Source: Candidatus Krumholzibacteriota bacterium
GTDB lineage: Bacteria > Krumholzibacteriota > Krumholzibacteriia > Krumholzibacteriales > Krumholzibacteriaceae
Length of the DNA stretch: 64,000 bases
Reading direction: 5' to 3'
Assembly (NCBI GenBank): GCA_016932415.1
Contig: JAFGCX010000031.1
Span: forward strand, 1 to 64,000
Positions within the stretch are counted from its first letter, which is position 1. The number at the start of each line of letters is the position of its first letter. Made by a program: the position numbers and the translations under genes. The notes beneath the pieces were generated by a model, which saw nothing but the letters and a program-made list of their open reading frames with translations, was not told where the DNA came from and searched no databases. Below are positions 9,248 through 30,380 of the stretch, in pieces.

Positions 9248-9252
9248 TAGGG

Positions 9253-10131
9253 ATGAACGAAGATCATTCGGGCAGAGCCGGGAAGGCTGAAAAGTCCGGC
9301 GGCAAAAAAAGTACGATCCTTGACAGGCTGATAATGTCAGCGATATTCATTCCATGTTTTTTGATCACGGCAAGAAGAGGGGGGATCTATTACCTGATCC
9401 TGATCGATATGATCATCCTCGTGGGATTGTGGGAATTCTACCGGATGATGGAAGCAAAAGGGTTAAAACCATACAAGATAATAGGTATCCTGAGTGGAAT
9501 AGCGCTTCCATGGTATATTTTCTTTCAGCAGGGTGTGTACGCCAACCTCCTTCTGACAGTCATCTTTATAGGAATTATGACGAGTGAACTCTGGAGAAAG
9601 GAAAAAGAAAGGGCTGTCTATCATATCTCCGTCACGATCTTTGGAGTCTTCTATGTCGCGTGGCTGGGAAGTCATTTTATACTCGTCCGCGAACTGCCGC
9701 AGATCCTCGGGCAGGATTATTCTGCTGGTTATTCATATGTCGTAATGATATTCGCTCTGACATGGAGCTATGACACGGGAGCTTATACGACAGGAAGGCT
9801 CTTTGGCAGGCACAAGTTATTTCCCTCGGTCTCGCCCGGCAAGACTGTCGAGGGCTCTATCGGGGGAGTCTTCTTCTCGATCGGTGGTATATTCATCGTC
9901 AGGGCTATAATGGCTCCTTACATCGGATGGATCGACGCAGTTCTTCTCGCCGTTGTAGCCTCTGTAATAGGACAGATCGGCGACCTGGTCGAATCGATGC
10001 TGAAAAGAGATGTCGATGTAAAGGATTCTTCCGAGACTATTCCCGGACACGGGGGAGTACTTGACAGGTTCGATTCAGTCCTGTTTACTGCTCCGGTGAT
10101 ATATTATCTGCTCAGATACTATTTGTTCTGA
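9253..10131 (+). CDS. cdsA: phosphatidate cytidylyltransferase (CDP-diglyceride synthase)
   Basis: CdsA makes CDP-diacylglycerol from phosphatidate and CTP, the precursor of membrane phospholipids. The 292-residue protein is strongly hydrophobic with several membrane segments from about residue 24 onward and ends with the family signature: SMLKRDVDVKD followed by IPGHGGVLDRFDS. The 20-residue N-terminus is charged and cytoplasmic-looking. It is five bases after uppS and 20 before dxr. Confidence 0.95.
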   Translation: MNEDHSGRAGKAEKSGGKKSTILDRLIMSAIFIPCFLITARRGGIYYLILIDMIILVGLWEFYRMMEAKGLKPYKIIGILSGIALPWYIFFQQGVYANLLLTVIFIGIMTSELWRKEKERAVYHISVTIFGVFYVAWLGSHFILVRELPQILGQDYSAGYSYVVMIFALTWSYDTGAYTTGRLFGRHKLFPSVSPGKTVEGSIGGVFFSIGGIFIVRAIMAPYIGWIDAVLLAVVASVIGQIGDLVESMLKRDVDVKDSSETIPGHGGVLDRFDSVLFTAPVIYYLLRYYLF

Positions 10132-10151
10132 TTACAGAGAAGGTAGCTACT

Positions 10152-11315
10152 TTGAAAAAAGTCGTCATTCTTGGTTCGACCGGATCGATAGGTAGAGCCG
10201 CGGTAGAGATCATTTCCCAGGCAAGTGATGATTTTGTCATAACGGGCCTGGCCGCGGAAAGCAATATCAATCAGATGCAGGAACAGCTTGCCGATTTTCC
10301 CGACGCATTTTTCTCGCTATACAGCGAGGCGGCTCTGAACAGGTTGATCAAAAAGGATCCTCTTCTTGGAAAAAGGGAGAGGGGGTCGGGATCGGATGGA
10401 GTCCTTGCCCTTGTAGAGGAAGGTGCCGCCGATATTGTGATAAATGCCATGGTAGGGATCTCGGGCCTGTTGCCGACGATCAAAGCTCTTGAAATGGGTA
10501 GCAGCGTAGCTCTGGCAAACAAAGAGGCTCTCGTAACCGGTGGTCATATAATAAACGACCTGATCCAGAATACTGCGGGACGGATCATACCGGTCGACAG
10601 TGAGCATTTCTCGCTTTCGCGATGCCTGAGGGGCAACAGGGAAGATACTCTGGAGATCATCCTGACCGCTTCAGGAGGACCTTTTTATAAAAGGGATATG
10701 ACGGGCCTGTCAGACGTAACGGTAGAAGAAGTGCTCGACCATCCCACATGGAAAATGGGCAAAAAAGTCACCGTCGATTCGGCTCATCTTATCAACAAGG
10801 GACTTGAAGTAATAGAAGCGCACTGGCTTTTCGATTTCCCGTATGATTCGATAGGCGTGGTAATTCATCCTCAATCGATCGTGCATTCCCTTACCAGGAT
10901 GAAAGATGGTTCGCTTCTGGCTCATCTCGGACCAGCGGATATGCGTCTTCCCATAATCAATGCCCTGTATTATCCCGTCGTAGCTCAATATCCGTGGGAA
11001 CCACTGTCGGTAAATGATTTTGGAAGGCTTGATTTCGTCCAGTTTGAGAGGAAGGATTATCCAGGGTTCGATATCGTAATGCAGGCGGCGAAAGCCGGAG
11101 GCACCGCGCCGACCGTTCTAAATGCCGCTGATGAAGTAGCCGTCTCATCTTTTTTATCAGGAAAGACGGGATTTATGACGATTATAGATTGGATAAGAGA
11201 AGCGCTGGACGCGCATATTCCGTCTGAAGCTTCCTCTCTCGAAGATATTATTGAAGCGGACAGATGGACAAGAAGGTTTTTGAGTGAAAGACATAAAGAT
11301 GCTGTTATAACCTGA
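10152..11315 (+). CDS. dxr: 1-deoxy-D-xylulose 5-phosphate reductoisomerase
   Basis: Dxr (IspC) commits DXP to the MEP pathway of isoprenoid synthesis, with NADPH. The N-terminal Rossmann motif GSTGSIGRAAVEII, LANKEALVTGG, PVDSEHFSLSRCL, ILTASGGPF, HPTWKMGKKVTVDSA and NKGLEVIEAHWLF are visible. The usual 'SEHSA' and 'ATMMNKGLE' segments read SEHFS and AHLINKGLE, conservative drifts around the flexible loop. Length 387 is normal. The start is a TTG at 10152. Linking dxr with uppS places precursor and lipid-carrier synthesis in one operon. Confidence 0.95.
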   Translation: MKKVVILGSTGSIGRAAVEIISQASDDFVITGLAAESNINQMQEQLADFPDAFFSLYSEAALNRLIKKDPLLGKRERGSGSDGVLALVEEGAADIVINAMVGISGLLPTIKALEMGSSVALANKEALVTGGHIINDLIQNTAGRIIPVDSEHFSLSRCLRGNREDTLEIILTASGGPFYKRDMTGLSDVTVEEVLDHPTWKMGKKVTVDSAHLINKGLEVIEAHWLFDFPYDSIGVVIHPQSIVHSLTRMKDGSLLAHLGPADMRLPIINALYYPVVAQYPWEPLSVNDFGRLDFVQFERKDYPGFDIVMQAAKAGGTAPTVLNAADEVAVSSFLSGKTGFMTIIDWIREALDAHIPSEASSLEDIIEADRWTRRFLSERHKDAVIT

Positions 11316-11325
11316 TGGAGGTTCC

Positions 11326-12666
11326 ATGTTTCTAACAATAATCGCTTTTGTTTTTGTCTTGAGTATTGTTGTCCTGGTTCATGAACTGGGTCATTTTCTC
11401 GTGGCAAAGTTGAACGGGATTTACGTCATAACTTTTTCAATCGGTTTCGGCCCGAAAATACTCAGGTTCAAGTACGGGGAGACGGAATATGCGCTTTCAG
11501 CGCTTCCATTCGGCGGATACGTAAAATTTGCCGGAGAAAACGAGGGAGAAGAAGACAAGGAAGACGATTTCGAGAAGGATATTCCGGAAGAGAGACTGTA
11601 TAAAAGCAAAAAGCCTGTCCAGAGGATGTCTGTTGTCCTCGCGGGACCGGCGATGAACGCGATTCTGGCTATCGTCCTTTACATATCGACTATATGGATA
11701 CAGGGCATCTTCGTGAGGAATCCTGGCGATGTGGTCAGTGGTGTCATTGATGATTCTCCCGCCGCCGTGGCTGGCTTTCAGACGGGAGACAGGATTATAG
11801 AGATCAACTCGAAGATTTTAAAACCCGGCGAGGAGATAAGCGACCTGGTCGATTACACTGAAGGCGCGAGTTCCACATTCCGGTTTTTAAGAGGGATCGA
11901 CACTCTTACCGCGCAAGTGACGCCCGAATGGAATGAGGAAGCGGGCCGGCTTACGATAGGGATCTTTTCGAGCAGCAGGCCGATAATCGGGGACGTAAAA
12001 AAGGACAGTCCGGCTTATAAAGCCGGGATCCGTAGCGGTGCGCTAATCCTGGCCATGAATGATACGACTGTCTATACCTACCTTGAAATGGCAGAGAAAA
12101 TCTATTCGCGCAACGGGATCCCGATAGAATTCAAGTGGGAACTCAATGGGGAGATACACAGTTCCGTGATCACTCCCACATCGATGGACGCTCCATCAGG
12201 AGGAGAAAAACTCGATGTGATCCAGGTCGGCGCGATCGGTGTAGGGGAGTTTTACGAGAAGCAGAGAGTCTCTTTTCCCGTTGCCGTCAAATACGGGGCG
12301 AAGGCTTTCAGCAACCTCTTCGTGTCGATAATGAGTTTTCTCGGCAAACTGGTTACGGGAAAAGCCACACTCAAGGCTGTCGGAGGGCCGATAAGAGTCG
12401 GTGTCATGGCGGGGGATATGATCAGATGGGGATTCAGCTATCTGATTAACTTCCTGGCGTTTTTCTCGATGAACCTGGCGATCTTCAATCTGTTGCCGAT
12501 CCTTCCATTTGACGGAGGCCATTTCGTCATTTTTGTGGTCGAGGCTCTGACCGGGTATAAACCCGGACCGAAGGTTCAGAATGTGATGGCCCAGACAGGA
12601 TTTATCATCCTGATAATTCTAATGGTGTTCATACTTTTCCTTGATCTGTTCAATCTTGTGAGGTGA
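11326..12666 (+). CDS. rseP: site-2 zinc protease RseP
   Basis: RseP is an inner-membrane intramembrane metalloprotease that cleaves anti-sigma factors and remnant signal peptides. The 446-residue protein has the catalytic HELGH at residues 19-23 in the first membrane helix, two tandem PDZ-like regions between roughly 125 and 300, and the C-terminal NLLPILPFDGGH carrying the third zinc ligand Asp. GGAGG precedes the ATG. A plausible local client is the anti-sigma factor encoded at 33832-34425, though that is inference. The stop codon abuts the stop of the convergent lipoprotein gene with no gap. Confidence 0.95.
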   Translation: MFLTIIAFVFVLSIVVLVHELGHFLVAKLNGIYVITFSIGFGPKILRFKYGETEYALSALPFGGYVKFAGENEGEEDKEDDFEKDIPEERLYKSKKPVQRMSVVLAGPAMNAILAIVLYISTIWIQGIFVRNPGDVVSGVIDDSPAAVAGFQTGDRIIEINSKILKPGEEISDLVDYTEGASSTFRFLRGIDTLTAQVTPEWNEEAGRLTIGIFSSSRPIIGDVKKDSPAYKAGIRSGALILAMNDTTVYTYLEMAEKIYSRNGIPIEFKWELNGEIHSSVITPTSMDAPSGGEKLDVIQVGAIGVGEFYEKQRVSFPVAVKYGAKAFSNLFVSIMSFLGKLVTGKATLKAVGGPIRVGVMAGDMIRWGFSYLINFLAFFSMNLAIFNLLPILPFDGGHFVIFVVEALTGYKPGPKVQNVMAQTGFIILIILMVFILFLDLFNLVR

Positions 12667-13112: not shown

Positions 13113-15056
13113 ATGAAGTTGTCAATTAATATGGTGGCGAGGACAATCAATCAGAATTCTGGAAGAATCGTCATTATACTTTTTCTTGTAATGCTGATCG
13201 CCGGATATTCCTCCGATCTGTTATCAGATGATTTCGGTCTCGATCTCCCTTACGTCAAAAGGATCGTCATACTTGGCAACGTGACTTTTGACGACGGTAT
13301 TCTCAAAAAGAGGATGAGGACCAGGGAAGCACGTTATTATAATATCTTCAACAAGCCACGTTTCAGAAGGGATTTCATCCGAAGGGACCTTGAAAGCCTG
13401 AAGACTTTCTATAGACTTAACGGATTTTTCGAAGTCACCGTTAATCTCGAGTCCATAGACAGGGATAAAAAGGGGAATCACGTCACATTACGTATCTTGG
13501 TGAATGAAGGTCCGCAATCGATTGTACGCAGTCTGCATTTTTCCGATCAGGATGCAGTCGCTCCGGAAACGCTGATAAAAGGCCTCAGACTTACAAAAGG
13601 TATGCCTTATAACCCGAACCTGGTGGAGACGGACAGGTACACCCTTTTCAGCCATTTTTTCAGAAAGGGATATCTTGGCGCGATGGTCGCCTGCAATACG
13701 AGGGTAGATTCAACGGATATTGATATATCGTGGGAAATTGCTCCAGGATCCCCGGTCAGAGTGGAGAAGATAGACATAAGCGGAAACCAGAAGGTCCGGG
13801 ATGAGCTGATCCGAAGGGAATTAAAGATAGGATCGGGACAGTATTTTCAGCTCCGGAAAATAATCGAAAGCAAACAGAACCTTTATGATACGGGATGTTT
13901 CAGCTCGGTGGAGATAGAACCCAAAGCGTTGGATGTTGATAGCGGAAAAGTCGATCTTCAGTTACAGGTCAGGGAAAGGAAGATGGGATATCTCGAATCG
14001 GGTCTCGGTGTCGGAAATGTTCACGCTAACAGGGTCTTTGCCGAATGGGGGCAGAGGAATCTTCTGGGACGGGGATACGCGCTGGATATCAAAACGGCTT
14101 TTGCTTTCAGGATCTTCGAGGATAACAAGTATGCATTATCGGACGTCAAGTTTGAGAATAAATATCAACGGCACGAAGGCGAACTTAGATTCCCGCACAT
14201 CCTGTCGACATGGAACACTTTTTCAGTGGGATCTTTTTACGAACGCGACGCCACAGTGGAACCGGTTATTGTCGAAGCGATCAGTTTTAACGGTACCGTA
14301 TCGCGCAGGATCTCAAGGCAGACTTCACTTCTTCTTGGATATGTCTATGAAAAAATAAGAAGGCAGGATGCTATCGATGAAAAGGAAAGGTCACTTCGAA
14401 GGTCACTCGATTTTACTTACCACAGAGATACGAGGGATTTCTATTTTAATCCGCGGCGGGGAAGATACATCGCGCTTGAGGCGAGATACGCCGGTGGGAT
14501 CCTCGGGGGAGACGATCATTACTATTCCATAGTACCGTCATTTCAGGATTATCGCCGCCTGTCAGAAGAGACGGTCCTTGCGTACAGGGTAAGGGCCGGT
14601 TACGCAAAAGCTTTTGGAGATAGCCGGGATACCGGGTTGCCGATCGAAAGCAGGTTTTTCCTCGGAGGAGGTAACTCTGTCAGGGGTTACCGCGAAAACA
14701 CACTGGGACCTCTTAACAGCACGGGAACAGCCAGGGGAGGCAACATCATGCTTCTGGCGAATATTGAGATGAGGTTTCCACTGCCAGTGATCTCAAAATA
14801 TAACTTCGGAGGAGCATTCTTCCTGGATGGCGGAAATGTCTGGGACTCCGTTTCCGATATAAAATTTGAAGAATTTGTTTTCATGAAGGAAAGATCCGAT
14901 ATATCGACCGCGGATTTCAGGTACAGTGCCGGTTTTGGATTGAGGTACTACACTCCGGTAGGACCTATCAGAATAGACGCGGGATTTCCGATAACCCGGC
15001 CCGTAGACATCGATTACGATTACTGGATCCACATCAGCCTCGGACAGATCTTTTAA
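13113..15056 (+). CDS. Omp85-family outer-membrane assembly protein (BamA/TamA type)
   Basis: Omp85 proteins insert beta-barrels into the outer membrane. This 647-residue protein has an N-terminal hydrophobic segment (about 19-34), three recognisable POTRA repeats (about 46-136, 137-215 and 216-292, the last starting KIDISGNQKV) and a C-terminal 16-strand-type barrel with the family motif FLGGGNSVRGY (VRGY at 523-526) and a terminal Phe. Position after dxr-rseP is that of bamA, but BamA normally has five POTRAs, whereas three POTRAs and an adjacent tamB are the hallmark of TamA. It may serve both roles. Start ATG 13113 has only a weak ribosome-binding site. Confidence 0.9.
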   Translation: MKLSINMVARTINQNSGRIVIILFLVMLIAGYSSDLLSDDFGLDLPYVKRIVILGNVTFDDGILKKRMRTREARYYNIFNKPRFRRDFIRRDLESLKTFYRLNGFFEVTVNLESIDRDKKGNHVTLRILVNEGPQSIVRSLHFSDQDAVAPETLIKGLRLTKGMPYNPNLVETDRYTLFSHFFRKGYLGAMVACNTRVDSTDIDISWEIAPGSPVRVEKIDISGNQKVRDELIRRELKIGSGQYFQLRKIIESKQNLYDTGCFSSVEIEPKALDVDSGKVDLQLQVRERKMGYLESGLGVGNVHANRVFAEWGQRNLLGRGYALDIKTAFAFRIFEDNKYALSDVKFENKYQRHEGELRFPHILSTWNTFSVGSFYERDATVEPVIVEAISFNGTVSRRISRQTSLLLGYVYEKIRRQDAIDEKERSLRRSLDFTYHRDTRDFYFNPRRGRYIALEARYAGGILGGDDHYYSIVPSFQDYRRLSEETVLAYRVRAGYAKAFGDSRDTGLPIESRFFLGGGNSVRGYRENTLGPLNSTGTARGGNIMLLANIEMRFPLPVISKYNFGGAFFLDGGNVWDSVSDIKFEEFVFMKERSDISTADFRYSAGFGLRYYTPVGPIRIDAGFPITRPVDIDYDYWIHISLGQIF

Positions 15057-15070
15057 CGGAGCCAAGGGAT

Positions 15071-18000
15071 TTGGTTAAAAAAATATTAAAATCAAGGATC
15101 ACGTCATTCGTTTCGCTGATAATAAGCCTTCTGCTGACAATGACGATTGTCGCCGGGATCATCTTTCATACTGATTTCTTCGCGAAGAGAACGTCAACGA
15201 TGTTTTCCCGGTATCTTTTCAGAGGGACCGGGTACACGCTGGAATTCAGGGCGATCTCCGGAAATCCGCTGGAGAGGATAAAAATCGAAGATCTTCGTAT
15301 CAGGTACAGGAGCAGTGAGTACGCCTTTGACCTTCTGCGTGTCGAAGAGATCTTCCTTAGCTATGATCTCGCGTCGCTATTCTCAACCGAGCCGTCGATA
15401 AACGAAATTATTTTCAATAGACCTCATGCGTGGATCAAGCCTGATTCCACGGGGGAGAATATACTGCCATTTAATGGGACTTCCACGGGTCGGTCAGGCC
15501 AGGTGAGATTCAGGGTGGAAAAATTCGATATCAATAACGGACAGTTAATATACCAGGGGAATCAGAGAGCCGACGCGTTGAAGAATCTGAATCTGGAAGG
15601 TGCCGTACGTTCCGGGGAAAAAGGGATAATAGCCGATATCGGCTCGGGGAGTGCCGAGGATATAAGGCGAAAACTTCATATCAGGAATATAAGTGGCAAT
15701 ATAAGAAAGAACTCGGGAAGTCGATCTCCTGTAGACCGGATCGAAGTCAGTGACCTGTTCCTTGAACTGGATGAATCGTCGTTGCTGATCAACGGGACAT
15801 TCGATCCCGATTCAACAAGGTTCGGGCTGAATATCGCCGCTGAACCATTTGATGTCGAGGAGATATCAAGGCTTGTAGGTATAGAATCGGGACAGTTTGG
15901 AGAACTGCAGGGAGTCCTCGCGGTAGAGGGTACGACGGGAGATCTCAAGATACGCGGTATGTTGAACGGTATATTGTCAGGATTCGCGCTTGATGGGTTC
16001 AAACTCGACCTCCGGTACGACACAAGAGCGGTTATGCTGAACAGTGGAGAAGGAAGATTAAATGGCGCCCTTGTGAATGGTAGCGGTGTTATGCCGGTCA
16101 GTGGTGAGCGGATCATCAAACTTGATCTCGACGTCAATGATCTTGACCTCTCTGCCGGTTTCATAAGAAATAATTCGATTCCCGACACAAGGTTCAACGG
16201 TATGTTGATATTGAGATATGATGTCGATTCGAAAGAATTGTATTTCACGATGGACCTGAAGGAAGGGCATCTCAGAAAAATACCATTCAGCACAATGACT
16301 GCTTCGGGCTCATACAGGGCTGATACTCTCTTTATGGACCAGATGACAATGGCATATCCGACTCATGATATTTCGACTACAGGTACGATATCCAGGGATG
16401 GTGGGATAAGGCTGTTCATCGATACCGAATGCGCTAAAGATGACACTTTGTTTTCATATTTCAATATAGACGAATATCGGGCGAATCTTAAGTTCAACGG
16501 AATATGGGAAGGCAGTTTTGCCCGATGGGACCTCAGGGCCAGCGGATGTTGCACGGACATATTCTACAAAGGAGCGTACGTTCCTTCCGGAGATATTAAA
16601 TTTGCTTTAAGCAGGGACGAATCATTTCGTTTCCTTTTTGAGATGCGGGGGGATAGCTGCGATATTGCGCCGTTGTCGTTTTCAGGGATAGACCTGTCCC
16701 TGGAATACAATGACAACATAACAAGTATCAAGAGACTGTACCTGCAGAGGCCGGGCCTGGTCGCCGACATGCGTGGAGATCTGATAAAAAACGAAGATAT
16801 AACCGAGATAGTATTCAATGAAGTCTCAATAGATGCCCTCGAGGAACGCTGGTTGAGCAATGGAAAATTCAGCGTCAACATAAGTGAATCAAGGATCGAG
16901 TTCGATGACCTGCAGCTTCATTCCAGGCTCGGGGCTCTCTATATGGGGTGTGTCGTGGGAAGAGAAGACCGGAGGATCAACGGGAACTTTACTTTCGACA
17001 GGCTTGGGCTGTCACTTTTTAACGCGGCTGGACTGATCAATAAGCCGGTAACGGGGAAGGGAGCGGGAGTGATAAATTGCCGAGGAACGATCGACCAGCC
17101 CGGTTTTGACCTCGATATGGTTCTTGAGCAGATGATCTATGACAGCCTTTCCGTGGATTCTCTGAAACTTGTCGCGAACTATTCGGACCGGATATTCGAG
17201 ATCGATACTTTGTATATCGATTCTCCTGAAGGCATCCTTGAGATGAAAGGCACAGTCTCGGGAACTGATCCAAGAGAACTTTTAAAAGGGAGGGAAAAGG
17301 CGCTGCGCGGAGCCGTTGCCGATTTAGACGCCGTATGCGAGGATCTTTCACTCGTACCGCTTTTTTCACTTTCGGAAAAATCACCTTTTTCAGGTGGTGA
17401 TTTTACGGGAATAATATCGGTCAGGGATTCACTGACCCATCCCCTTCTTGGAGTCGAGGGAAAGATCTCAGGGCTTTCAACCGATCGGTACAGGATCCCG
17501 ATGATCGACATTTCAGCCGATATAGACAGACAGTCGCTCAAGCTCGATGGGATAATGGAATTATCACAAGGACAGAGAGGGAGATTCAACGGAAATATCA
17601 ATCTGAATCACGAGAAATGGTTCTATTCGATAGACCAGCATGAACCGATATCGGTCGGATTGAGTATTCCCGACGGGGAGTTGTCCAGCATCACAGGCAT
17701 GACCGATATAATCGCCGAGGCCGAAGGAAGGTTTTCAGCCGAATTCACCGTAACCGGTACTGCTTCAGAACCCAAGCTGCGGGGAAGACTGGATCTTGAC
17801 CAGGCAGGTTTCAGGCTGGGAGGGATGGAGGAAAGATACAGGGGGATCAGGGCTGTAATAACCCTGGACGATACGCTGGTCACGATCAGGGAACTGCACG
17901 GGAAGGAAGGTAAGAACGGCAATTTCAATTGCGTGGGCAGCGTATCGCTCAAGGGATGGAGGCCAGAAAGGTATGACATAGATATAGAAGTCGACAAGAT

Positions 18001-18964
18001 TCTCATAGCGAGCATTCCCGATGTAATGGCGATAGTAAGTGGAAACCTTGCAGTCGGAACTACTGAAAGCGGTGGAAAGAAGATTCCCGTAGTCACGGGC
18101 GACCTGAGTGTCAACAGGGCTGAGGTGTATATAGATTTCGGCGATTTCGCCTCTGTGCAGAAAAGTGGATCGCTTGAGCCGCCGGGATGGATGGCGGAGG
18201 TCGACCTGGAAGTGAAGGGAAATACGTGGCTGAAGACACCGGACGCCAACGTCGAGATGGAAGGTGCTGTCACTCTGCATCATGATCAGAAGGGGTCATA
18301 CGTGCGCGGTTCCCTTAATCTTATAAGGGGCTGGTATAATGTCTATAATAACAAGTTCCGGGTATCTTCGGGGAAACTGGAATTCGTGCACGCCGACAGT
18401 TTCAGGCCTGTCATAGACGTTCAAGCCGAGACGAACGATCCCGAAGGCAGAAAGATCTATCTTACCCTTTCCTGGCACCAGGACGATATCGAACCGAGGC
18501 TTTCCCTGTATCACGAGGACGCTGGATACAGCGAGACTGATATCTGGAAAATGCTCGGAGGAGGAGTCATCGGAACGTCGGAAGGGGCGGGTGCGAGCTG
18601 GGATGCCATGAATACAGCCCAGAACCTGGCGGCCAACTACATAGAACGGATGTTAAACTCCCAGATGCAGGGAGTATTAATAGAAGTCGAGACGAGTGGA
18701 GGAGCAAGCAGCGCTACAGAAGGGTTCGAGCCGGAAGAGACGATTGTGGCGATCGGCAAGTATCTCTCGGAAGGCCTTTATGTCAAATATAAACAAGGGT
18801 TGTCTATCTCAACGGCGCGTCATTTCGAGGTAGAATACAGGTTGAGCCGGCTCTTCCTGATCCGTTCCGAAGTCATAATGTATTCCGAGAAAGTACTTCA
18901 GGGCAGAAGCAAAAGAAACAGCGATGAGATCAACGTGGATTTCAAGGTCCGCTGGGAATTCTGA
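15071..18964 (+). CDS. tamB: TamB-type translocation and assembly module protein (DUF490)
   Basis: TamB/AsmA-like proteins span the periplasm as long hydrophobic beta-grooves, working with Omp85 proteins and in phospholipid transport to the outer membrane. The 1297-residue product has one N-terminal membrane anchor (about residues 15-35), a long repetitive beta-rich body and a C-terminal DUF490 domain ending in Phe, as in the family. It starts with TTG 14 bases after the Omp85 gene and is thus probably translated with it. Gene pairing with an upstream three-POTRA Omp85 protein supports a Tam-like complex. Confidence 0.88.
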   Translation: MVKKILKSRITSFVSLIISLLLTMTIVAGIIFHTDFFAKRTSTMFSRYLFRGTGYTLEFRAISGNPLERIKIEDLRIRYRSSEYAFDLLRVEEIFLSYDLASLFSTEPSINEIIFNRPHAWIKPDSTGENILPFNGTSTGRSGQVRFRVEKFDINNGQLIYQGNQRADALKNLNLEGAVRSGEKGIIADIGSGSAEDIRRKLHIRNISGNIRKNSGSRSPVDRIEVSDLFLELDESSLLINGTFDPDSTRFGLNIAAEPFDVEEISRLVGIESGQFGELQGVLAVEGTTGDLKIRGMLNGILSGFALDGFKLDLRYDTRAVMLNSGEGRLNGALVNGSGVMPVSGERIIKLDLDVNDLDLSAGFIRNNSIPDTRFNGMLILRYDVDSKELYFTMDLKEGHLRKIPFSTMTASGSYRADTLFMDQMTMAYPTHDISTTGTISRDGGIRLFIDTECAKDDTLFSYFNIDEYRANLKFNGIWEGSFARWDLRASGCCTDIFYKGAYVPSGDIKFALSRDESFRFLFEMRGDSCDIAPLSFSGIDLSLEYNDNITSIKRLYLQRPGLVADMRGDLIKNEDITEIVFNEVSIDALEERWLSNGKFSVNISESRIEFDDLQLHSRLGALYMGCVVGREDRRINGNFTFDRLGLSLFNAAGLINKPVTGKGAGVINCRGTIDQPGFDLDMVLEQMIYDSLSVDSLKLVANYSDRIFEIDTLYIDSPEGILEMKGTVSGTDPRELLKGREKALRGAVADLDAVCEDLSLVPLFSLSEKSPFSGGDFTGIISVRDSLTHPLLGVEGKISGLSTDRYRIPMIDISADIDRQSLKLDGIMELSQGQRGRFNGNINLNHEKWFYSIDQHEPISVGLSIPDGELSSITGMTDIIAEAEGRFSAEFTVTGTASEPKLRGRLDLDQAGFRLGGMEERYRGIRAVITLDDTLVTIRELHGKEGKNGNFNCVGSVSLKGWRPERYDIDIEVDKILIASIPDVMAIVSGNLAVGTTESGGKKIPVVTGDLSVNRAEVYIDFGDFASVQKSGSLEPPGWMAEVDLEVKGNTWLKTPDANVEMEGAVTLHHDQKGSYVRGSLNLIRGWYNVYNNKFRVSSGKLEFVHADSFRPVIDVQAETNDPEGRKIYLTLSWHQDDIEPRLSLYHEDAGYSETDIWKMLGGGVIGTSEGAGASWDAMNTAQNLAANYIERMLNSQMQGVLIEVETSGGASSATEGFEPEETIVAIGKYLSEGLYVKYKQGLSISTARHFEVEYRLSRLFLIRSEVIMYSEKVLQGRSKRNSDEINVDFKVRWEF

Positions 18965-19040
18965 GAGAAATGCCTTGAAATCAACGGAATGGAACGACAT
19001 CTTTCAAGTGAAGCAGAGATTGAAGATTCGGAGGAGGAAG

Positions 19041-22000
19041 ATGAAGAAAACTGCCGGAATAGTGTTATTTTTTCTGGCCCTTGATCTTTTCCTTTTACAC
19101 CTGCCCCTTTCCAGTGTCAGCGCCCAGGCATGGTGGTTCGGAAAGAACAAGGTACAGTACAAGGATTTCGAATGGCAGATTCTCAAGACTCCTCATTTTG
19201 ATATCCATTTCAACCAGGGGTACCGCGATCTCGCCGGCAGGACTGGCGTCGTCCTTGAATACGGTTACGGCAAGCTCTCCGTGGACCTGAGGCATCACAT
19301 ATCATGGCGTATACCGGTGATCCTTTACGGCAGCCATTCGGATTTTCAACAGACCAACACGACCTGGCAGCTGCTTCCCGAGGGCGTACAGGCTTTCGCC
19401 GAACCGAGCAGAAGGAGGGTCGTCCTTCATTTCAACGGTTCAAACGTCGATTTCAGTCACACCGCGATACATGAACTTGTCCATATTTTTCAATTCGACA
19501 TTATATACGGAAGCCTTCTCAGATCAGTGTTTTCAAGGAATATGCTTTTTAATATTCCTCTCTGGTTTGCGGAGGGTACTGCGGAATATTTCTCTGCCGG
19601 AGGAGTCGACGATGAATGCAGGATGTTCATGCGCGACGGTACGATCTTCGATTATCTTCCTTACGATCTGAATTATGCCGGTGGATACATGAATTACAAG
19701 GCCGGACAGTCAGCAATATCCTATATCGCCGAGACTTATGGTAAGGAAAAGGTCATTGAACTGATGGATCAACTTCGGTTCAACAGGTCGATGGAGATGT
19801 CCCTTCATCGTACTATAGGTATCTCGACAGAGGAGCTTACGAAGAATTGGAAAAACAATCTCAGGCGGGAATACTGGCCCGAGTACGCCGATAAGATGGA
19901 GGCGGAATCAATCGCCAGAAAAGTCACCGATCATCTTAAGAAGCATAACTATATAAACTCAAAACCCGTATTTTCGCCTGATGGAGAGTATATCGCCTAT
20001 TATTCTGACAGGAGCGGTCTTGAAGGTATCTATATAATGGATTCAGTCACAGGCAAGAAGAAGAAAAAACTTCTTGTCGGGTCGACATCGAGTCAGTTCG
20101 AATACATAAGGACGAGACTTTCAAGCCTGACGTGGAATCCTGAATCGTCGGAGATTGCTTTTGTCGCCAAGTCGGATGGAAGGGACAGGTTGTTTCGGAT
20201 GGGTGTCCCGGGGGGAAATATCATCGAGGAGATAGACCTTCCACTCGATTTCTTTTTCAACCCGGTATGGTCGCCGGACGGAGAAAAGATCATTGTCGTG
20301 GGCACGCTCAGGGGGCAGACAGATCTCTTTTTTTATGACCTTGGAATGAAGAAACTTTTCCAGGTCACCGATGATACATGTGATGAAAAATATCCCGCCT
20401 GGTTCCCCGACGGAAAGAGGATCGTATATACACGTTATCCCGAACCCGTCAAGCAGCCTGTCTTCACGACTGACAGCACCGGAGTGGACAGGATTGAGAA
20501 CCTCGACTATGCTGACATGAGTAACGTTCTTTCCGTCAAGGGTGATATCTGGATGATAGATATCCTGAGCGGAGAGAAAAGGCTCGTTATCTCCACTCCA
20601 GGCAACGACGAATCGCCACAGATACTATCCAATGGCCTGGAACTGTTATTTGTCTCGGATGAATCAGGGATAAGCAATCTTTACCGTGGAAGCTTCGAAA
20701 TCGGAAGCTACCACCGTTTTACCGACATACTCGGAGGCCTGTTCAATCCTTCCGTCTCAAACGTCAAGGACCGTCTGGTCTTCTCCGCTTTTAACGCCGC
20801 CGGGTATGATCTTTTCATAATGGATAATTTCGAGGAAAAGTCGAGGGTGTCATATTCGACGGGTGGGCCCCTGTTGGCCGGGATCAAGGAGGAAAAATGG
20901 CCTTCGTTCGGAGTGCTTCCGGAGATCGATCCCTATGGAGGTTCCGGGTTGGAAGGTCCTGACCCTGAGGTTGAGCGGATCACTGTGGAAGAAAAGATGC
21001 CAGGGTCGCCCGACGGGAAGGAAGATCAATCGGTCGATACAAGTTCCGGTGCTGGAACCCCCCAGGGAGGAAGGTTTCCCGGCAGGAGATGGGAAAACGG
21101 AGCCGAAGTACCTGACGTGGTTATCAACGAAGATTCAAAAGAGAGGATCGATCCAGATTCGCTCGAGGCCCTGCGCGAATCTTTCAGAAAACGTGTGGGC
21201 ACAGTTGAAAAGTACAGAATCAAATTCTCTCCCGACTACATAGGAAACGGAATGGGGGTCTATTTCGCGACCGGACTCGGGTTCGGACTGTCCAACCAGA
21301 TCGCGTTCAGCGACCTTCTGGGTGACCATCACCTCTTTCTGGCGTTCAGCCTCTATGGATCGGTAGAAGACAGCGATATGATGCTGTCATATTACTATGT
21401 CAAGAAGAGGATCGATTATTCGCTCGGTATCTTTCAGTTCAAGAACTACCTCAATTCCAGGTTCTCCTCCGTGGGGGAGACATTTCTGGACTACAGATAT
21501 TTTACCGAGAGGAACTACGGCCTTTTTGGTAATGCTTCTTTTCCCTTTTCTACTTTTACAAGGGCGGAGATGGAACTCCAGGCGTACATGAGTGAGAGGG
21601 AGTTTCTTATACTCGATGATGGATCGTATTACGGGTATACCGTTTATGACAGCGATGTATCGGTAAAGAGGATGTTGCAACCATCTTTTTCCATAGTTCA
21701 TGACTCGGCTTACTACGGGTCTTTCGGACCAGTGATAGGGTCCAGATGGATGCTCAGTTTTTCAAGGGCCCTGTCGTTCAGTGGACGCGACATATCGAGG
21801 ACGACGGCGTTTCTCGATTATCGCAGGTACAGACCTCTCTTCTACAGGAACTACCTTGCCTTCAGGACAGTGGCAAGCAGCAGCAACGGGGAAGATAGGC
21901 GGTATTTCTTCCTCGGAGGCCCGACGACGATGCGAGGATACGATTACCTGCAGTTCCAGGGTTCAAGGATGATGCTTTTCAACCTCGAGTACAGGTATCC

Positions 22001-22292
22001 ACTCGTTGACGCGATAATATTCGGATGGCCGGGCAGATGGGCCTTGACGAATATCGGAGGGACGTTGTTTTTTGATACGGGATCTGTTTGGGGTGATGGA
22101 AGATATATCGAGAAGCTGCCCGCCGCAATAGACCCGGTGATGATAAACGATCTGGAGTTTTACAGTGATTTCGGGGTTGGATTCTATATGAGGATGGGTT
22201 TTCTCATATTTAATTTTCAGCTTGCCTGGCCGACTGATTTTTCAAATACCGGTGAACCGGTGTTCCATTTTTATCTGGGTCCGCAATTCTGA
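19041..22292 (+). CDS. secreted zinc peptidase / TolB-like propeller / Omp85-like barrel fusion protein
   Basis: A 1083-residue protein with a signal peptide (cleavage after about Ala30). Residues 40-270 look like a gluzincin peptidase: HELVH at 144-148, then WFAEGTAEYF with Glu178 as likely third zinc ligand. About 300-660 carries six PD40/TolB-type propeller blades (FSPDGEYIAYYS and similar). A low-complexity linker (about 670-730) leads to a C-terminal barrel with the Omp85-type motif GGPTTMRGY (RGY at 965-967) and a terminal Phe. I choose ATG 19041, preceded by GGAGGAGG; the frame opens further upstream within tamB. It follows tamB by 76 bases. Function unknown; likely an outer-membrane-anchored protease or chaperone facing the periplasm. 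Confidence 0.88.
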   Translation: MKKTAGIVLFFLALDLFLLHLPLSSVSAQAWWFGKNKVQYKDFEWQILKTPHFDIHFNQGYRDLAGRTGVVLEYGYGKLSVDLRHHISWRIPVILYGSHSDFQQTNTTWQLLPEGVQAFAEPSRRRVVLHFNGSNVDFSHTAIHELVHIFQFDIIYGSLLRSVFSRNMLFNIPLWFAEGTAEYFSAGGVDDECRMFMRDGTIFDYLPYDLNYAGGYMNYKAGQSAISYIAETYGKEKVIELMDQLRFNRSMEMSLHRTIGISTEELTKNWKNNLRREYWPEYADKMEAESIARKVTDHLKKHNYINSKPVFSPDGEYIAYYSDRSGLEGIYIMDSVTGKKKKKLLVGSTSSQFEYIRTRLSSLTWNPESSEIAFVAKSDGRDRLFRMGVPGGNIIEEIDLPLDFFFNPVWSPDGEKIIVVGTLRGQTDLFFYDLGMKKLFQVTDDTCDEKYPAWFPDGKRIVYTRYPEPVKQPVFTTDSTGVDRIENLDYADMSNVLSVKGDIWMIDILSGEKRLVISTPGNDESPQILSNGLELLFVSDESGISNLYRGSFEIGSYHRFTDILGGLFNPSVSNVKDRLVFSAFNAAGYDLFIMDNFEEKSRVSYSTGGPLLAGIKEEKWPSFGVLPEIDPYGGSGLEGPDPEVERITVEEKMPGSPDGKEDQSVDTSSGAGTPQGGRFPGRRWENGAEVPDVVINEDSKERIDPDSLEALRESFRKRVGTVEKYRIKFSPDYIGNGMGVYFATGLGFGLSNQIAFSDLLGDHHLFLAFSLYGSVEDSDMMLSYYYVKKRIDYSLGIFQFKNYLNSRFSSVGETFLDYRYFTERNYGLFGNASFPFSTFTRAEMELQAYMSEREFLILDDGSYYGYTVYDSDVSVKRMLQPSFSIVHDSAYYGSFGPVIGSRWMLSFSRALSFSGRDISRTTAFLDYRRYRPLFYRNYLAFRTVASSSNGEDRRYFFLGGPTTMRGYDYLQFQGSRMMLFNLEYRYPLVDAIIFGWPGRWALTNIGGTLFFDTGSVWGDGRYIEKLPAAIDPVMINDLEFYSDFGVGFYMRMGFLIFNFQLAWPTDFSNTGEPVFHFYLGPQF

Positions 22293-22408
22293 TAATCCCG
22301 TATTTACCACATGGATCAGTAATGGTATTATATCCGGCACGGTATTTCGCGACTGCCGGTGAGCCGGACGATAGGTTTGCGGGTGAACAGCAAAAGGAAA
22401 AGCGCTTC

Positions 22409-24568
22409 ATGATGAAATTCGATCTTAATCCGCGGCAGAAGGAAGCAGTGCTATCCACTGATGGATACTATCTTATTCTCGCCGGCGCGGGAAGCGGGAA
22501 AACAAGGGTCCTGACTGAAAGGATCGCCTACCTGATAAGAGAAAAAAATGTATCTCCGGAAAGGATCCTCGCCTTCACCTTCACTAATAAAGCGGCCGGA
22601 GAGATGCGAGCCCGCGTTGAAAGATCCCTTTCGCAAAGAAAAATTCCTTTCTGGGTCTCCACGTTCCATTCTACGGGGCTGAAAATATTACGGAAAGAGG
22701 CGAACAGGATCGGGTTCAGGAACAATTTCGCGATATATGACGAGGATGATTCGATCAGGTTGATCAAGGATATCATCAGGAAGAAAAACTGGAATCTCGA
22801 TGAATATCCGCCTTCGATCGTCCGGAACAGGATCTCCGCGTGGAAGAACAGTCTTGTCACTCCCGACGAAGCGGTCGAGACAGCCATCGACGGTATTGAA
22901 GAGCTTCAGGCAAAGGTCTATCTTGCCTATGACATCGAACTGAAGAGATCCAATTCCTTTGATTTTGACGATCTGATAACCAGGGTCGTCGAACTCTTTA
23001 CCGCCCATCCAAAGATAAGGGAAAGGTATGCCAGGCAATTCAAGTACGTCCTCGTTGACGAGTTCCAGGATACCAACACGATCCAGATGATGATGATCGA
23101 TATGCTCGCGTCGAAGAACAGGAACCTGTTTGTCGTCGGAGACGACGATCAGGCTATCTATGGATGGCGGGGGGCGACGATCGAGAATATACTCCAGTTC
23201 GACAGGCTGTATGAAGGGACCGTAACGATCCGCCTCGAGGAGAATTATCGCTCTACAAACAATATTCTGTCCGCTTCCAACGCTGTCATATCGAATAATC
23301 TCGATCGCAAAGGGAAGAAGCTCTGGTCAAAAAAGGGTGATGGTGAAAAAGTACGGACAGTCTACGCGTCTGATGACAGGGGAGAGGCCCTCGCGGTAAG
23401 GGAAGCCGTGATGAGATTGATAAGGAACGGATACAGGAGGGATGAGATAGCAGTCCTCTACAGGACTCACGCCCAGTCAAGGGCGCTCGAAACGGCAATG
23501 ATAAGGGGAGGGCTCCCATACCAGATAATCGGAGGAGTTAGGTTCTATGAGAGAAAAGAAATAAAAGACCTTCTCGGGTATCTGAAACTGGTCAACAATC
23601 CTGATGACAACCTTAATTTCAAGCGAGTGATAAATGTCCCGAAGAGAGGTATTGGAAACGTTACGATAGAAAGGATAGAGGAAGAAGCGGGGGACGGGAG
23701 TCTTCTGCCGGCAATCATATCGGGTGAGATACTCGACAGGTTTTCCTCATCCCAGAGGAAGCGTATAGAAGAATTTTCAAAACTGATTTCAGTAATGCGA
23801 TTAAGGGCCAAAAACGACACGGCTTATGAAATACTGTCATATCTAATAGAAACAATTGGATACAGAGAATACTTAAAGGAAGATATCAAGACTGCGCAGG
23901 TGAGGCTGGAGAATGTAGAGGAATTGCTCAACGAGACGAAGAGATTCGCCGCTGTCTCGGATGACCCCTCGCTACCCGCATTTCTCGAGGAGATAGCTCT
24001 GATAAGCAATGTCGATTCGATGAGAGATGAAGACAAAATCGCTCTTATGACCCTTCACAATTCGAAAGGCCTCGAATACAGATCAGTGATGATCACGGGG
24101 CTCGAGGAAGGCCTGTTACCGCATTTCTCGTCTTTTGATGACGAGAGGGAGATGGAAGAGGAAAGAAGGCTTTTTTACGTCGGAATGACAAGGGCGAAAG
24201 AGGAATTATATCTTTTCTGCGCGGCAAGCAGGATGCAATTCGGCAACTGGAACGACAACCGACCTTCCAGGTTTCTCGAAGAGATCCCTGAAAAGTATAA
24301 GGAGATAACCGGCGTAAACCGGCAGATCGAAGGAGGGGGCGATATTTTCAGGCAGGTAGATCAGATCGAATCGCTGGAACGCGGTGAGGACAGGATAAGC
24401 AATGACAGCAGGTTCAGAGTAGGGGTCTCGATCTCTCATCCATCATTCGGCGAAGGGACGATAAAGAAGGTGGAAGGGACGGGGATGGAGATGAGAGTGA
24501 CCGTTCACTTCACCGGATTCGGGCAGAAGAAATTCCTGGCTCATTACGCGCCATTCAGGTTCAATTAA
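22409..24568 (+). CDS. pcrA: UvrD/PcrA-type ATP-dependent DNA helicase
   Basis: A superfamily 1A 3'-5' helicase of repair and replication. The 719-residue protein starts with the Q motif (LNPRQKEAV), Walker A AGAGSGKT, then DEFQDTN (Walker B), GDDDQAIYGWRGA, ENYRS and the C-terminal TLHNSKGLE and VGMTRAKEEL motifs. The last 50 residues (HPSFGEGTI onward) form the Tudor-like RNA-polymerase-binding domain of PcrA/UvrD. Adjacent ATGs at 22409 and 22412 follow AAAAGGAAAAG; the frame extends upstream without signals. It is separated from the preceding gene by 116 bases and appears monocistronic. Confidence 0.94.
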   Translation: MMKFDLNPRQKEAVLSTDGYYLILAGAGSGKTRVLTERIAYLIREKNVSPERILAFTFTNKAAGEMRARVERSLSQRKIPFWVSTFHSTGLKILRKEANRIGFRNNFAIYDEDDSIRLIKDIIRKKNWNLDEYPPSIVRNRISAWKNSLVTPDEAVETAIDGIEELQAKVYLAYDIELKRSNSFDFDDLITRVVELFTAHPKIRERYARQFKYVLVDEFQDTNTIQMMMIDMLASKNRNLFVVGDDDQAIYGWRGATIENILQFDRLYEGTVTIRLEENYRSTNNILSASNAVISNNLDRKGKKLWSKKGDGEKVRTVYASDDRGEALAVREAVMRLIRNGYRRDEIAVLYRTHAQSRALETAMIRGGLPYQIIGGVRFYERKEIKDLLGYLKLVNNPDDNLNFKRVINVPKRGIGNVTIERIEEEAGDGSLLPAIISGEILDRFSSSQRKRIEEFSKLISVMRLRAKNDTAYEILSYLIETIGYREYLKEDIKTAQVRLENVEELLNETKRFAAVSDDPSLPAFLEEIALISNVDSMRDEDKIALMTLHNSKGLEYRSVMITGLEEGLLPHFSSFDDEREMEEERRLFYVGMTRAKEELYLFCAASRMQFGNWNDNRPSRFLEEIPEKYKEITGVNRQIEGGGDIFRQVDQIESLERGEDRISNDSRFRVGVSISHPSFGEGTIKKVEGTGMEMRVTVHFTGFGQKKFLAHYAPFRFN

Positions 24569-24652: not shown

Positions 24653-26677
24653 TTAAAACCGTCTGTCTGGCCGGATTCTTTCCCTCAGCCGTCTGAATGA
24701 ATCTTTCGATCTTTGATCAGGCGCGGCTGTTTCCGCTTCTTCCAGCAGCTCGACGGCTTTTTCAGGACTATGTGTTGCCAACAGGCACCGGGTCATTCCA
24801 AGGATAAGAGAATTGTAACTCGAACTCCTCACTACGGGGAAATTGAAAGCGAGTTGATACGAGGCGATAGCCTGCCTGTAATAACCGAACGCTTCATAGT
24901 TAAGACCGAGATCGAGATAGAAAAGCTCCTCGCTTCCCGTTGCCAGGTCACCGGAAAGACTGAGTAAAGAAGGGAACTCGATCTCTTTCCTGCGCGAGAA
25001 TTCCCGATGGTGGCGAGTGCTCCTGAATATCGTCAGAACGGGGCCGCTGGAAGCATCTTCCGCGCTTTTAAATACGATATCATAGTCTCTGGCCAGAGCA
25101 ACGTAAAAAGCGTTCTGCTTTGAATATCTGGCCGGATCTTTCATATACCTCGAACAGACAGAACTGCTTGTGATTATTATATCGGCCATCCTGTAGAGAG
25201 AAAGGTCATAAAAACTCTCAGAACGTTCCGACACGGACTGGAACATCGGTATCGGAAGCAGAGCGTAATCGACGCGGCCGCCGATCCTTTCGAGGATCAT
25301 CTTTCTGACCTTTTCCGGCTGGGCCGCGATCACCTGCGGTTTTATAAACTCCGGGCCGTAAGCTTCAGTCACAATAAACGAACCACTGGGAATATTCTCT
25401 CTGATCCATTCTTTCGCGATCGTTCGGTTATCCGGCCGGTATTTCTGAATATGCTCCGGACAGGAAGCGGCTATCGGAAAGGCGATCAGGAAAGAGAGGA
25501 CAGACAGGGTGGAAAATCTGATCAACCGGGACAGTCTGGCCGTGAATATATACCGGTATGTCCCGGCGATCGCTGCCGAGGCAAAGATCAGCAGCAGCGG
25601 CAGGACGGGAAGGAGATATCTGTCCGCTTTCATCGACCAGGAGGATATTACCAGTAAATAAGGCAACGCGAATGAGGCGAATATTATCGAATTTTTATCG
25701 CGAATCCTGACCGCAAAGTAAAAGATGGCCGAGATCGAAAGAAAGAGAAGCGGCCATCCGGGCAACAGGCCGGGTAGCGAGCCGGCGTAGAATCTCAGCG
25801 ATGACGTACTTTCGAGGCCAAAATGTCCGGATTGCATATGCTGACGCTCAAGGGAGATATCCTTCCAGAACTCCGGCCAGTCGAGGACGGTATATGGAGA
25901 GGTGATTATGAAGACGGCGATGGCTGTTGCCGACACGAGAAGGAGGGACCTGATGATGGAAGAGACGCTTTGATGTTTTGATCCTATCGCGGCGCGATCT
26001 TCACTCTTGTCAAAAAAAGCCGCGGCATGGACTGCCAGGAGCGGAATAAAAAGAAGCGCCGCCGTGTATTTCGTCGATATCGCCAGACCGGTAAATATCC
26101 CCGTGATTATCCTGACGCGGAAGCTGTCGCTTTTCAACAGTCTCGTCATCAGGATCAGGGACGCCGTGATGAAGAAGGTCAGTGGAATGTCTACTTCGAT
26201 CAGCTGTGATTTGGAGATATGGAATGTGTTGAGTGCGAGAAGGATCGCTGAAATGATCCCGGCCGTTCTGCCGGCGAGTATCCGGCCGGCATGGAAGACC
26301 GCCGCTATCGTGGCGACACCGAACAGTGCTCCCACCGCGCGACCGGCATAGTAAAAGAGAGTCTTGTCGATTATATAGGCTGCCTGGAAATGGGCGGTTG
26401 ATGAGATGATACCGGAGATCTTCATTGACAGAAAGAGTATCCCCTGGACCGCGAAATGGAGGTAGATCATAAGACCGGGATAATTAAAGAAATGTGGATT
26501 GAGATCAGGCGTCCTTCCGGTTCCCCAGCCCCACATCTCCCACGCTTTGATCAGCGGCGTCGCTTCCTCATATATCTCGGGCAGGGCCCAGCCCAGCCCC
26601 AGGAATCTAAAGACTGTTCCGGAGATCAGGACTATAAAAAGGACAGGGATATTCTTTTCAAGAAATAAGCGTTTCAT
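24653..26677 (-). CDS. GT39-type membrane glycosyltransferase with C-terminal TPR-like region
   Basis: A 674-residue protein. The first 420 residues are a polytopic membrane domain resembling dolichyl-phosphate-mannose protein mannosyltransferases (GT39/ArnT-like): an acidic EIYEEATPL segment in the first periplasmic loop (Glu37-Glu38) and FNYPG downstream. These enzymes transfer sugars from lipid-phosphate donors on the periplasmic side. A soluble domain follows and the last 120 residues have helical repeats resembling TPRs (AFGYYRQAIASYQLAF, PEKAVELLEEA). It is the last gene of a minus-strand group. Donor and acceptor are unknown. Confidence 0.8.
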   Translation of the reverse strand: MKRLFLEKNIPVLFIVLISGTVFRFLGLGWALPEIYEEATPLIKAWEMWGWGTGRTPDLNPHFFNYPGLMIYLHFAVQGILFLSMKISGIISSTAHFQAAYIIDKTLFYYAGRAVGALFGVATIAAVFHAGRILAGRTAGIISAILLALNTFHISKSQLIEVDIPLTFFITASLILMTRLLKSDSFRVRIITGIFTGLAISTKYTAALLFIPLLAVHAAAFFDKSEDRAAIGSKHQSVSSIIRSLLLVSATAIAVFIITSPYTVLDWPEFWKDISLERQHMQSGHFGLESTSSLRFYAGSLPGLLPGWPLLFLSISAIFYFAVRIRDKNSIIFASFALPYLLVISSWSMKADRYLLPVLPLLLIFASAAIAGTYRYIFTARLSRLIRFSTLSVLSFLIAFPIAASCPEHIQKYRPDNRTIAKEWIRENIPSGSFIVTEAYGPEFIKPQVIAAQPEKVRKMILERIGGRVDYALLPIPMFQSVSERSESFYDLSLYRMADIIITSSSVCSRYMKDPARYSKQNAFYVALARDYDIVFKSAEDASSGPVLTIFRSTRHHREFSRRKEIEFPSLLSLSGDLATGSEELFYLDLGLNYEAFGYYRQAIASYQLAFNFPVVRSSSYNSLILGMTRCLLATHSPEKAVELLEEAETAAPDQRSKDSFRRLRERIRPDRRF

Positions 26678-26690
26678 ATTATCCGCACGC

Positions 26691-27725
26691 TCACGGCCTG
26701 AGATCCTCTATAAACGAAGCGTCTATCCAGTATATCCCCGCGGATCCGCCGCCCGGTTCACTTGACATCCTTATCATAAGGTCGCGCGTCATGCCCCCAT
26801 CGGGATGTTCGAATTCCTTTTTCATCCTTGCCGACATAAAAAATAAATATTTTCCATCGGGGGATATATACGCGGAATGTTCACGCCCTCCTGGCGTGTT
26901 GACCTTCGCGCCCATATTGACAAGGTCGGACCATGTGTCATCGGGATCGCGGAAACTTATGAAATAATCATCCCCGCCGAGTCCGTCTTCTCTGCCCGCG
27001 ACCGGGACGATAATGAAATCCTCATCGGGAGATATGAAAGCGTTATACTGAGCCGAAGTGGAATTGACGTTTTCCGGGAGCTTCTCCGCTTCGGTATATT
27101 TTCCATCAATGAGCCGTGATCTGAAGATGTAGCTCGACCTGCCCTCGTTACGCGTAAAATAGAGCGTACCATCCCTTGTAATCGATGGAAAGAATTCAGC
27201 CGCTTCAGTCGTGATCGGAGGCCCGGGCGTGTAAGGTTCGCTCCACGAATCGCCGATCCTGTCCATCATCCATATATTCTGGCTTCCCGCGGCGATCCCG
27301 TTCGCCGAGTCAGGTCTGGTGGACAGAAACATGAATCTGCTTCCGTCGGGAGAGATGGCAGGTTCAGCGTCCATATAATCGGGATTTCCCGAGAAAGAGG
27401 CGACTTCCGGTTTTGTCCAGACTCCGTTGATATTCTTCGTACAGAGGATCTGGGTTATCCTGTAGAACCCGACAATAGCGGTGAAATATATCTCTTTTCC
27501 GTCCGGAGTCATGGCGATATCCCTCGTGAAGAGCCCTGTCGTCACAAGCCCCGGCGCGAACAGTTCAGGTTCGAGTCCGGGCGTGTCCTGTCCGAGATAC
27601 TCGCCCGTAAGAACGGGAAACGTCTGGTCTCCGGACGAACGAGGACCGTCAGAGCAACCAGAAAGCATTATAAAAATGACCGGTACGACAGTGAGGGTCG
27701 ATTTCAGTATCGAGGAAAGACGCAT
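26691..27725 (-). CDS. TolB-like (PD40 repeat) lipoprotein
   Basis: A 344-residue predicted lipoprotein: hydrophobic signal with lipobox LSGC (Cys24). The mature part holds about five PD40 repeats (MTPDGKEIYFT, ISPDGSRFMFLS, ITRDGTLYFTR, ISPDEDFIIVP, ISPDGKYLFFMS), predicting a beta-propeller like the periplasmic TolB domain. Such propellers usually bind proteins or glycans; there is no catalytic motif. The frame extends 21 codons further upstream, but the signal peptide fits only a start at 27725. It lies 13 bases ahead of the glycosyltransferase gene and could be co-transcribed with it. Confidence 0.82.
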   Translation of the reverse strand: MRLSSILKSTLTVVPVIFIMLSGCSDGPRSSGDQTFPVLTGEYLGQDTPGLEPELFAPGLVTTGLFTRDIAMTPDGKEIYFTAIVGFYRITQILCTKNINGVWTKPEVASFSGNPDYMDAEPAISPDGSRFMFLSTRPDSANGIAAGSQNIWMMDRIGDSWSEPYTPGPPITTEAAEFFPSITRDGTLYFTRNEGRSSYIFRSRLIDGKYTEAEKLPENVNSTSAQYNAFISPDEDFIIVPVAGREDGLGGDDYFISFRDPDDTWSDLVNMGAKVNTPGGREHSAYISPDGKYLFFMSARMKKEFEHPDGGMTRDLMIRMSSEPGGGSAGIYWIDASFIEDLRP

Positions 27726-27833
27726 CAGACATACCTCCGCTAAAAAGAGATGACAGCCAACGGGCAGGCGGGCATGAGAATTATACATCAGGCCAGGCGA
27801 CCGGGCAACAGTGATCTTGAAAGGCCGCCGGGA

Positions 27834-28355
27834 TCAGCTGTCCAGGAACTCGAAATACTCGAGCTCCCTGAAATGGAATAACCGCGCGAGGATAAGATCA
27901 GGAAAACTGCTGATCAGCGTATTGTACCGCATCACTATATCGTTGTAGATCTGCCTGGAGAACCTTATTTTTTCCTCCGTCTCCTTCAGTTCATCCTGTA
28001 GCCTGATAAAATTACCACTGGCTTTGAGTGATGGATACTGTTCCTTCAGGGCGATGAGTGATTTCAATGACTTCGACAGATTATTTTCCTTTCCAGTCCT
28101 CTCTTTCTGCCTGGCGGCGACAGCTTCAGAACGGCTTTTCGTGACTTCATCGAAGACTCTGGCTTCGTGAGCGGCGTATCCCTTCACGATCTCGACGATA
28201 TCAGGGATCAGCTGATGCCTGCGTTTAAGCTGTATATCGATCTGGGATGCGGCGTTTGAGCACCTGTTTCTGTATTTTACAAACCGGTTAAAGACTATCG
28301 CTATCCATACGAAAAGGGACGCGGCGGCAATCGAATAAATATAGATCCGGGTCAT
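27834..28355 (-). CDS. lemA: LemA family membrane protein
   Basis: A 173-residue protein with one N-terminal membrane helix (residues 5-23) and a long helical bundle, with the family-typical segment around residues 45-70: LKRRHQLIPDIVEIVKGYA followed by HE. LemA proteins are widespread, membrane-anchored and functionally unclear; they are commonly encoded next to DUF2207 or TPM-domain proteins, as here. It follows the DUF2207 gene by 63 bases on the same strand. Confidence 0.9.
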   Translation of the reverse strand: MTRIYIYSIAAASLFVWIAIVFNRFVKYRNRCSNAASQIDIQLKRRHQLIPDIVEIVKGYAAHEARVFDEVTKSRSEAVAARQKERTGKENNLSKSLKSLIALKEQYPSLKASGNFIRLQDELKETEEKIRFSRQIYNDIVMRYNTLISSFPDLILARLFHFRELEYFEFLDS

Positions 28356-28418
28356 AACAGTTCACTTCCTGACTTTATCGATCAGCTTGCTGTATCCTCG
28401 AGCAATATCTCACGAATA

Positions 28419-30380
<1,962 letters not shown>

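Follow-up and report, generated by a model that had tools for sequence, protein, structure and literature searches.

A zinc peptidase, a TolB-like propeller and an Omp85-type barrel predicted in one outer-membrane protein of Krumholzibacteriota, a candidate membrane-tethered quality-control protease

The DNA analysed here (the window) is a stretch of 64,000 nt from a MAG of the little-known phylum Krumholzibacteriota, and its nearest relatives are Candidatus Krumholzibacteriota MAGs as well. On its plus strand, positions 19041–22292 (stop included) form one ORF translating to 1083 aa, which we characterized with Pfam, a profile search of the genome and AF2. A strong Shine-Dalgarno-like sequence, GGAGGAGG, stands at 19030–19037 ahead of the ATG at 19041, and the product from this ATG opens with a Sec-type signal peptide (residues 1–28, 19041–19124) in which we saw no lipobox on reading the sequence; for both reasons we place the start here rather than at a longer alternative ATG at 18924. 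All on the same strand, the gene is preceded by an Omp85 gene with POTRA repeats (13113–15056, 647 aa, over the NCBIfam BamA cut-off) and a tamB-like gene (15071–18964, 1297 aa, PF04357), and is followed by a uvrD/pcrA-type helicase gene (22322–24568). The helicase gene and, further upstream, rseP (11326–12666), which encodes a site-2 protease, were assigned by Pfam and NCBIfam, and neighbourhood comparison identified these two and the frr-uppS-cdsA-dxr cluster (7893–11315) as conserved neighbours. The ORF, its length, its motifs and the gene order were all recovered as the initial annotation gave them when the sequence was re-read, and a promoter/terminator scan gave no usable signal. Past uvrD, the minus strand at 24653–30380 encodes a PMT-type glycosyltransferase, a PD40 protein, LemA and a DUF2207 protein, a set that adjoins uvrD in the nearest relatives too. 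A spurious fusion of two genes by the reading frame was ruled out, as the orthologues are single ORFs in many species, and a 3042-aa ORF at locus L051 proved to be an open frame running through the operon and not a true fusion.

The N-terminal part of the protein is a peptidase MA-like zinc domain (residues ~40–285, 19158–19895), in which residues 93–274 match Peptidase_MA_2 (PF13485) at 36.6 bits against a Pfam cut-off of 32.4, and which AF2 models confidently as a mixed alpha/beta domain (pLDDT mostly 75–90, with short loops lower). It carries the zinc-binding and catalytic motif HELVH (residues 144–148, 19470–19484) and, downstream, the sequence WFAEGTAEYF (residues 175–184, 19563–19592), in which E178 is the proposed third zinc ligand. 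Among 64 aligned homologues there are 53 zinc-type proteins (24 operon-type and 16 paralogous sequences from Krumholzibacteriota and 13 from the Bacteroidota sample), and every one of them has H144, E145, H148, E178 and also E182. The HExxH motif with its downstream Glu ligand and the score above the PF13485 cut-off place the domain in the peptidase MA, or gluzincin, group by sequence, and the gluzincin-type peptidase that had been proposed thus has an intact zinc site whose ligands are conserved, not lost, among these homologues. We accordingly predict from sequence that the protein is a zinc metallopeptidase, which would be proteolytically active. A sequence search yielded no solved relative of this domain (best match 4mcj, E 0.07), and the structure comparison of the whole model listed matches to the propeller and none to the peptidase domain.

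This propeller occupies residues ~290–600 (19908–20840). PD40 scores 75 bits in Pfam, NCBIfam finds TolB-type propeller repeats, and the AF2 propeller, which is well predicted, superimposes on TolB with a VIA-align Z of ~26 (2.2–2.7 Å over ~240 residues, ~20% identity), a match that makes it six-bladed and bears out the TolB-like propeller of the initial annotation. The TolB family model itself (TIGR02800) does not reach its cut-off (119 vs 343 bits), its best matches falling in the propeller repeats. TolB of the Tol-Pal system has the six-bladed propeller fold in common with our protein, in which the N-terminal domain of TolB is not visible and the propeller is instead joined to a peptidase and a barrel; that the protein replaces TolB is unlikely, as the source genome has a separate TolB-like gene (G000:C30, 253 bits, below the family cut-off). 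A low-complexity linker follows (residues 601–722, 20841–21206), disordered in AF2 over residues 606–693 and with pLDDT below 30 over most of 606–690. Comparison of orthologues shows that this linker is hypervariable, with lengths of 39–179 aa, and that the peptidase and the barrel are the best-conserved parts.

The C-terminal region (residues 723–1083, 21207–22289) is predicted to form a 16-strand Omp85-type outer-membrane barrel. The profile search of the genome placed PF01103 at 21474–22289 with 33.8 bits against a cut-off of 24, and the NCBIfam match to Omp85 was weak. The AF2 model of the full protein was built with 13 sequences; modelled alone, the barrel has 16 strands at low to moderate confidence (pLDDT 58), and its listed structural matches are all Omp85 barrels of BamA, Sam50 and Toc75 type (Foldseek E 1e-8), with VIA-align giving Z of 17–20 over 263–300 residues to BamA and Sam50. 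The L6 motif GG-x3-RGY (residues 959–967, 21915–21941) falls between strands 11 and 12 of the model, and its beta-13 partner motif of the form FFDxGxVW, here FFDTGSVW (residues 1010–1017, 22068–22091), places D1012 on predicted strand 13, positions that we take to be those of the L6 motif and the Asp in BamA as well. R965 is present in 64/64 aligned homologues and G966 and D1012 each in 63/64, F1010 is invariant, and the L6 and beta-13 motifs are kept in every homologue group. The barrel profile also matches the neighbouring Omp85 protein of the window (hhalign 95.7%). By predicted fold and by these motifs the barrel belongs to the Omp85 superfamily, and both the barrel with its GG-x3-RGY motif and the lack of POTRA held up as first described, since Pfam found no POTRA in the protein, whose N-terminus is taken up by peptidase and propeller. 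Taken together, these results argue for a real outer-membrane protein of three parts, in which a zinc peptidase and a six-bladed propeller precede a BamA-type barrel. The source genome (G000) has nine Omp85-superfamily barrels over the PF01103 cut-off, which looks large; among its other relevant genes are one for a separate 748-aa BamA-like protein (L056) and a second tamB-Omp85 gene pair (L055 4646–10530, G000:C10) besides that of the window.

The layout had been presented as if unique, and this did not stand. Heinz and Lithgow (2014) named a POTRA-less WD40-Omp85 subfamily with an N-terminal TolB-like propeller, likened to a fusion of BamA and BamB, and our protein shares its propeller, its Omp85 barrel and its lack of POTRA, a correspondence drawn from the layout as described in the available part of that paper (PMC4104836). 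Our protein adds the peptidase domain, which that part of the text does not mention for WD40-Omp85 proteins, and the 'Metallo' subfamily given there is a separate one, defined by PF00149 (PMC4104836). We found nothing specific in the literature on the three-part layout or on relatives with a pseudopeptidase, and the available portions of two 2025 papers on Bacteroidota BAM structures (PMC12611786, PMC12578637) and of a paper on TamL (PMC12045153) describe no such protein as a subunit.

BamA, TamA and Sam50 have the barrel fold and the L6 RGY and beta-13 D motifs in common with our protein, which differs from them in lacking POTRA and in bearing an enzyme. An enzyme domain N-terminal of an Omp85 barrel is likewise found in PlpD-type proteins, in which it is a lipase, whereas ours is of protease type with a propeller in the place of POTRA. 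This likeness raises an alternative in which the N-terminal module would reach the cell surface through export or display by the barrel and serve there as a protease, either in nutrition or in the processing of surface proteins. PlpD-type proteins retain POTRA between passenger and barrel, however, and we found none here; a folded propeller would be an unlikely passenger, and the operon context favours assembly machinery. Surface display would fit the long flexible linker, as well as a protein encoded on plasmid pSR116 of Salinibacter ruber (L094 5923–7821; WP_118831798, 'basic secretory protein-like protein'), which is 30% identical and has an active-type peptidase with intact HELVH, a propeller and a Sec signal, and no barrel. 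The next ORF encodes a serine carboxypeptidase and not a barrel, which rules out a split gene. There is also the precedent of PlpD itself, a patatin-type Omp85 protein according to the available text of PMC4104836. On balance we regard surface display as unlikely.

In Krumholzibacteriota, tamB lies directly upstream in 25/25 in-operon orthologue loci examined, which span families f1, f2 and f4–f8 of the class, so that the link to tamB and an Omp85 gene first noted has far stronger support than the single window could give. Where contigs reach, the gene order in most loci is (dxr-)rseP-omp85-tamB-[gene]-uvrD. The gene is absent from 23 of the 69 sampled genomes, all belonging to f5 (23/33 sampled f5 genomes), and in the five gene-less f5 genomes with both flanks present tamB directly adjoins uvrD and the rest of the cluster is unchanged, which marks the gene as a precise accessory of the operon. 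In one single-contig genome (G042) the gene is split, with its N-terminal part by tamB and its C-terminal part by uvrD more than 2 Mb apart (L057, L071), reflecting either a rearrangement or a misassembly.

Since the gene directly follows tamB and an Omp85 gene, a role beside the Omp85/TamB machinery is the most likely one, and we see about an even chance that the protein is a periplasmic zinc protease, tethered to the outer membrane, by which proteins at this machinery are processed or cleared in the manner of BepA. Its topology, proteolytic activity, substrate and partnership we infer as follows: the Omp85-type barrel would sit in the outer membrane with the N-terminal part in the periplasm, by the usual Omp85 topology; the flexible linker would let propeller and peptidase reach proteins at the membrane; the propeller may dock or present substrates; and the zinc site would cut misassembled or immature outer-membrane proteins, beside the Omp85/TamB assembly and lipid-transport machinery, much as BepA acts at BAM. 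The likeness to BepA, an M48 periplasmic zinc metallopeptidase of E. coli, lies in having a zinc metallopeptidase expected at an Omp85 machine. BepA itself is a soluble protein that carries TPR repeats and has neither barrel nor propeller, and the tests run here showed no homology between the two proteins. At BAM, BepA either aids the maturation of LptD or degrades it (PMC8423444).

The operon also holds uvrD and isoprenoid/lipid genes, so that linkage does not prove a common function, and several observations count against this reading: most f5 genomes manage without the gene, the barrel-less Salinibacter version is soluble, and a 953-aa paralogue in the source genome with the same three-part layout and an intact zinc motif (L038 8480–11338, G000:C1) lies away from tamB, among conserved housekeeping genes beside dapF and near a Big_5 Ig-like protein gene. 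The uvrD and isoprenoid genes of the cluster, together with paralogues located elsewhere, would suit a general envelope peptidase functionally unlinked to Omp85 and TamB, whose operon merely reflects inherited gene order. We consider this very improbable, as the barrel itself is of Omp85 type and a TamB/AsmA linkage recurs in Bacteroidota amid otherwise different neighbours: by Pfam, three zinc-type Bacteroidota loci (L124, L125, L126) have the order TamB/AsmA-like-rnr-gene, two (L127, L136) have a large ORF without Pfam match and then rnr, and in two others (L122, L123) the TamB/AsmA-like-rnr-gene arrangement is not present.

Queried with a Hymenobacter homologue at E ≤ 1e-15, 101 of 148 sampled Bacteroidota genomes gave matches; these are sequence matches, most of them in ORFs of ~1030–1190 aa, with the domain layout checked for part of them. 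The layout is therefore widespread and common in Bacteroidota. Eleven of the 64 aligned homologues, all from Bacteroidota/Chlorobiota, have lost HExxH, and a few of them still have one of the two downstream Glu residues; all retain W175, G179, Y183, G222 and G234 as well as the Omp85 motifs. A maximum-likelihood tree (midpoint root, quick search) unites these zinc-dead proteins in a single, fully supported group, for which one loss is enough, and by sequence the zinc site was thus apparently lost once, in one Bacteroidota clade, with fold, propeller and barrel motifs kept. At five Bacteroidota loci (L128–L132) the T9SS genes porU and porV are only a few kb away from the zinc-dead homologue, with porU identified at four loci by NCBIfam and at the fifth as a C25 peptidase, and porV confirmed at three; this hints at a link between the pseudopeptidase branch and type IX secretion.

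A whole clade without a zinc site counts against the protease role, and its retention of the fold shows that a scaffold may persist where proteolysis has gone. The protein might then be mainly a scaffold or insertase-like accessory, with the conserved work done by propeller and Omp85 barrel and proteolysis secondary or lineage-specific, as the single zinc-site loss, the conservation of the L6 and beta-13 motifs in all groups and the proximity of clade members to porU-porV would allow; yet in Krumholzibacteriota the peptidase is conserved as well as the barrel and its zinc residues are all invariant, and we think such a role improbable. Returning to a tethered protease, we offer tentatively, and with some doubt, a broader proposal in which the family across Krumholzibacteriota and Bacteroidota would supply an Omp85-TamB machine with a proteolytic subunit of its own, while the pseudopeptidase branch in Bacteroidota, near type IX secretion genes, would have taken on a new role as regulator or scaffold.

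The policing of outer-membrane assembly outside Proteobacteria is poorly known. The protein described here belongs to a widespread, uncharacterized family and is a good candidate for a quality-control protease tethered to the membrane; built onto an Omp85 barrel, and in an operon with another Omp85 protein and TamB, it is directly testable. A related form occurs in about two thirds of the sampled Bacteroidota, cultivable members of which carry the family, and the natural pseudopeptidase branch offers a way to tell a scaffold role from a protease role.
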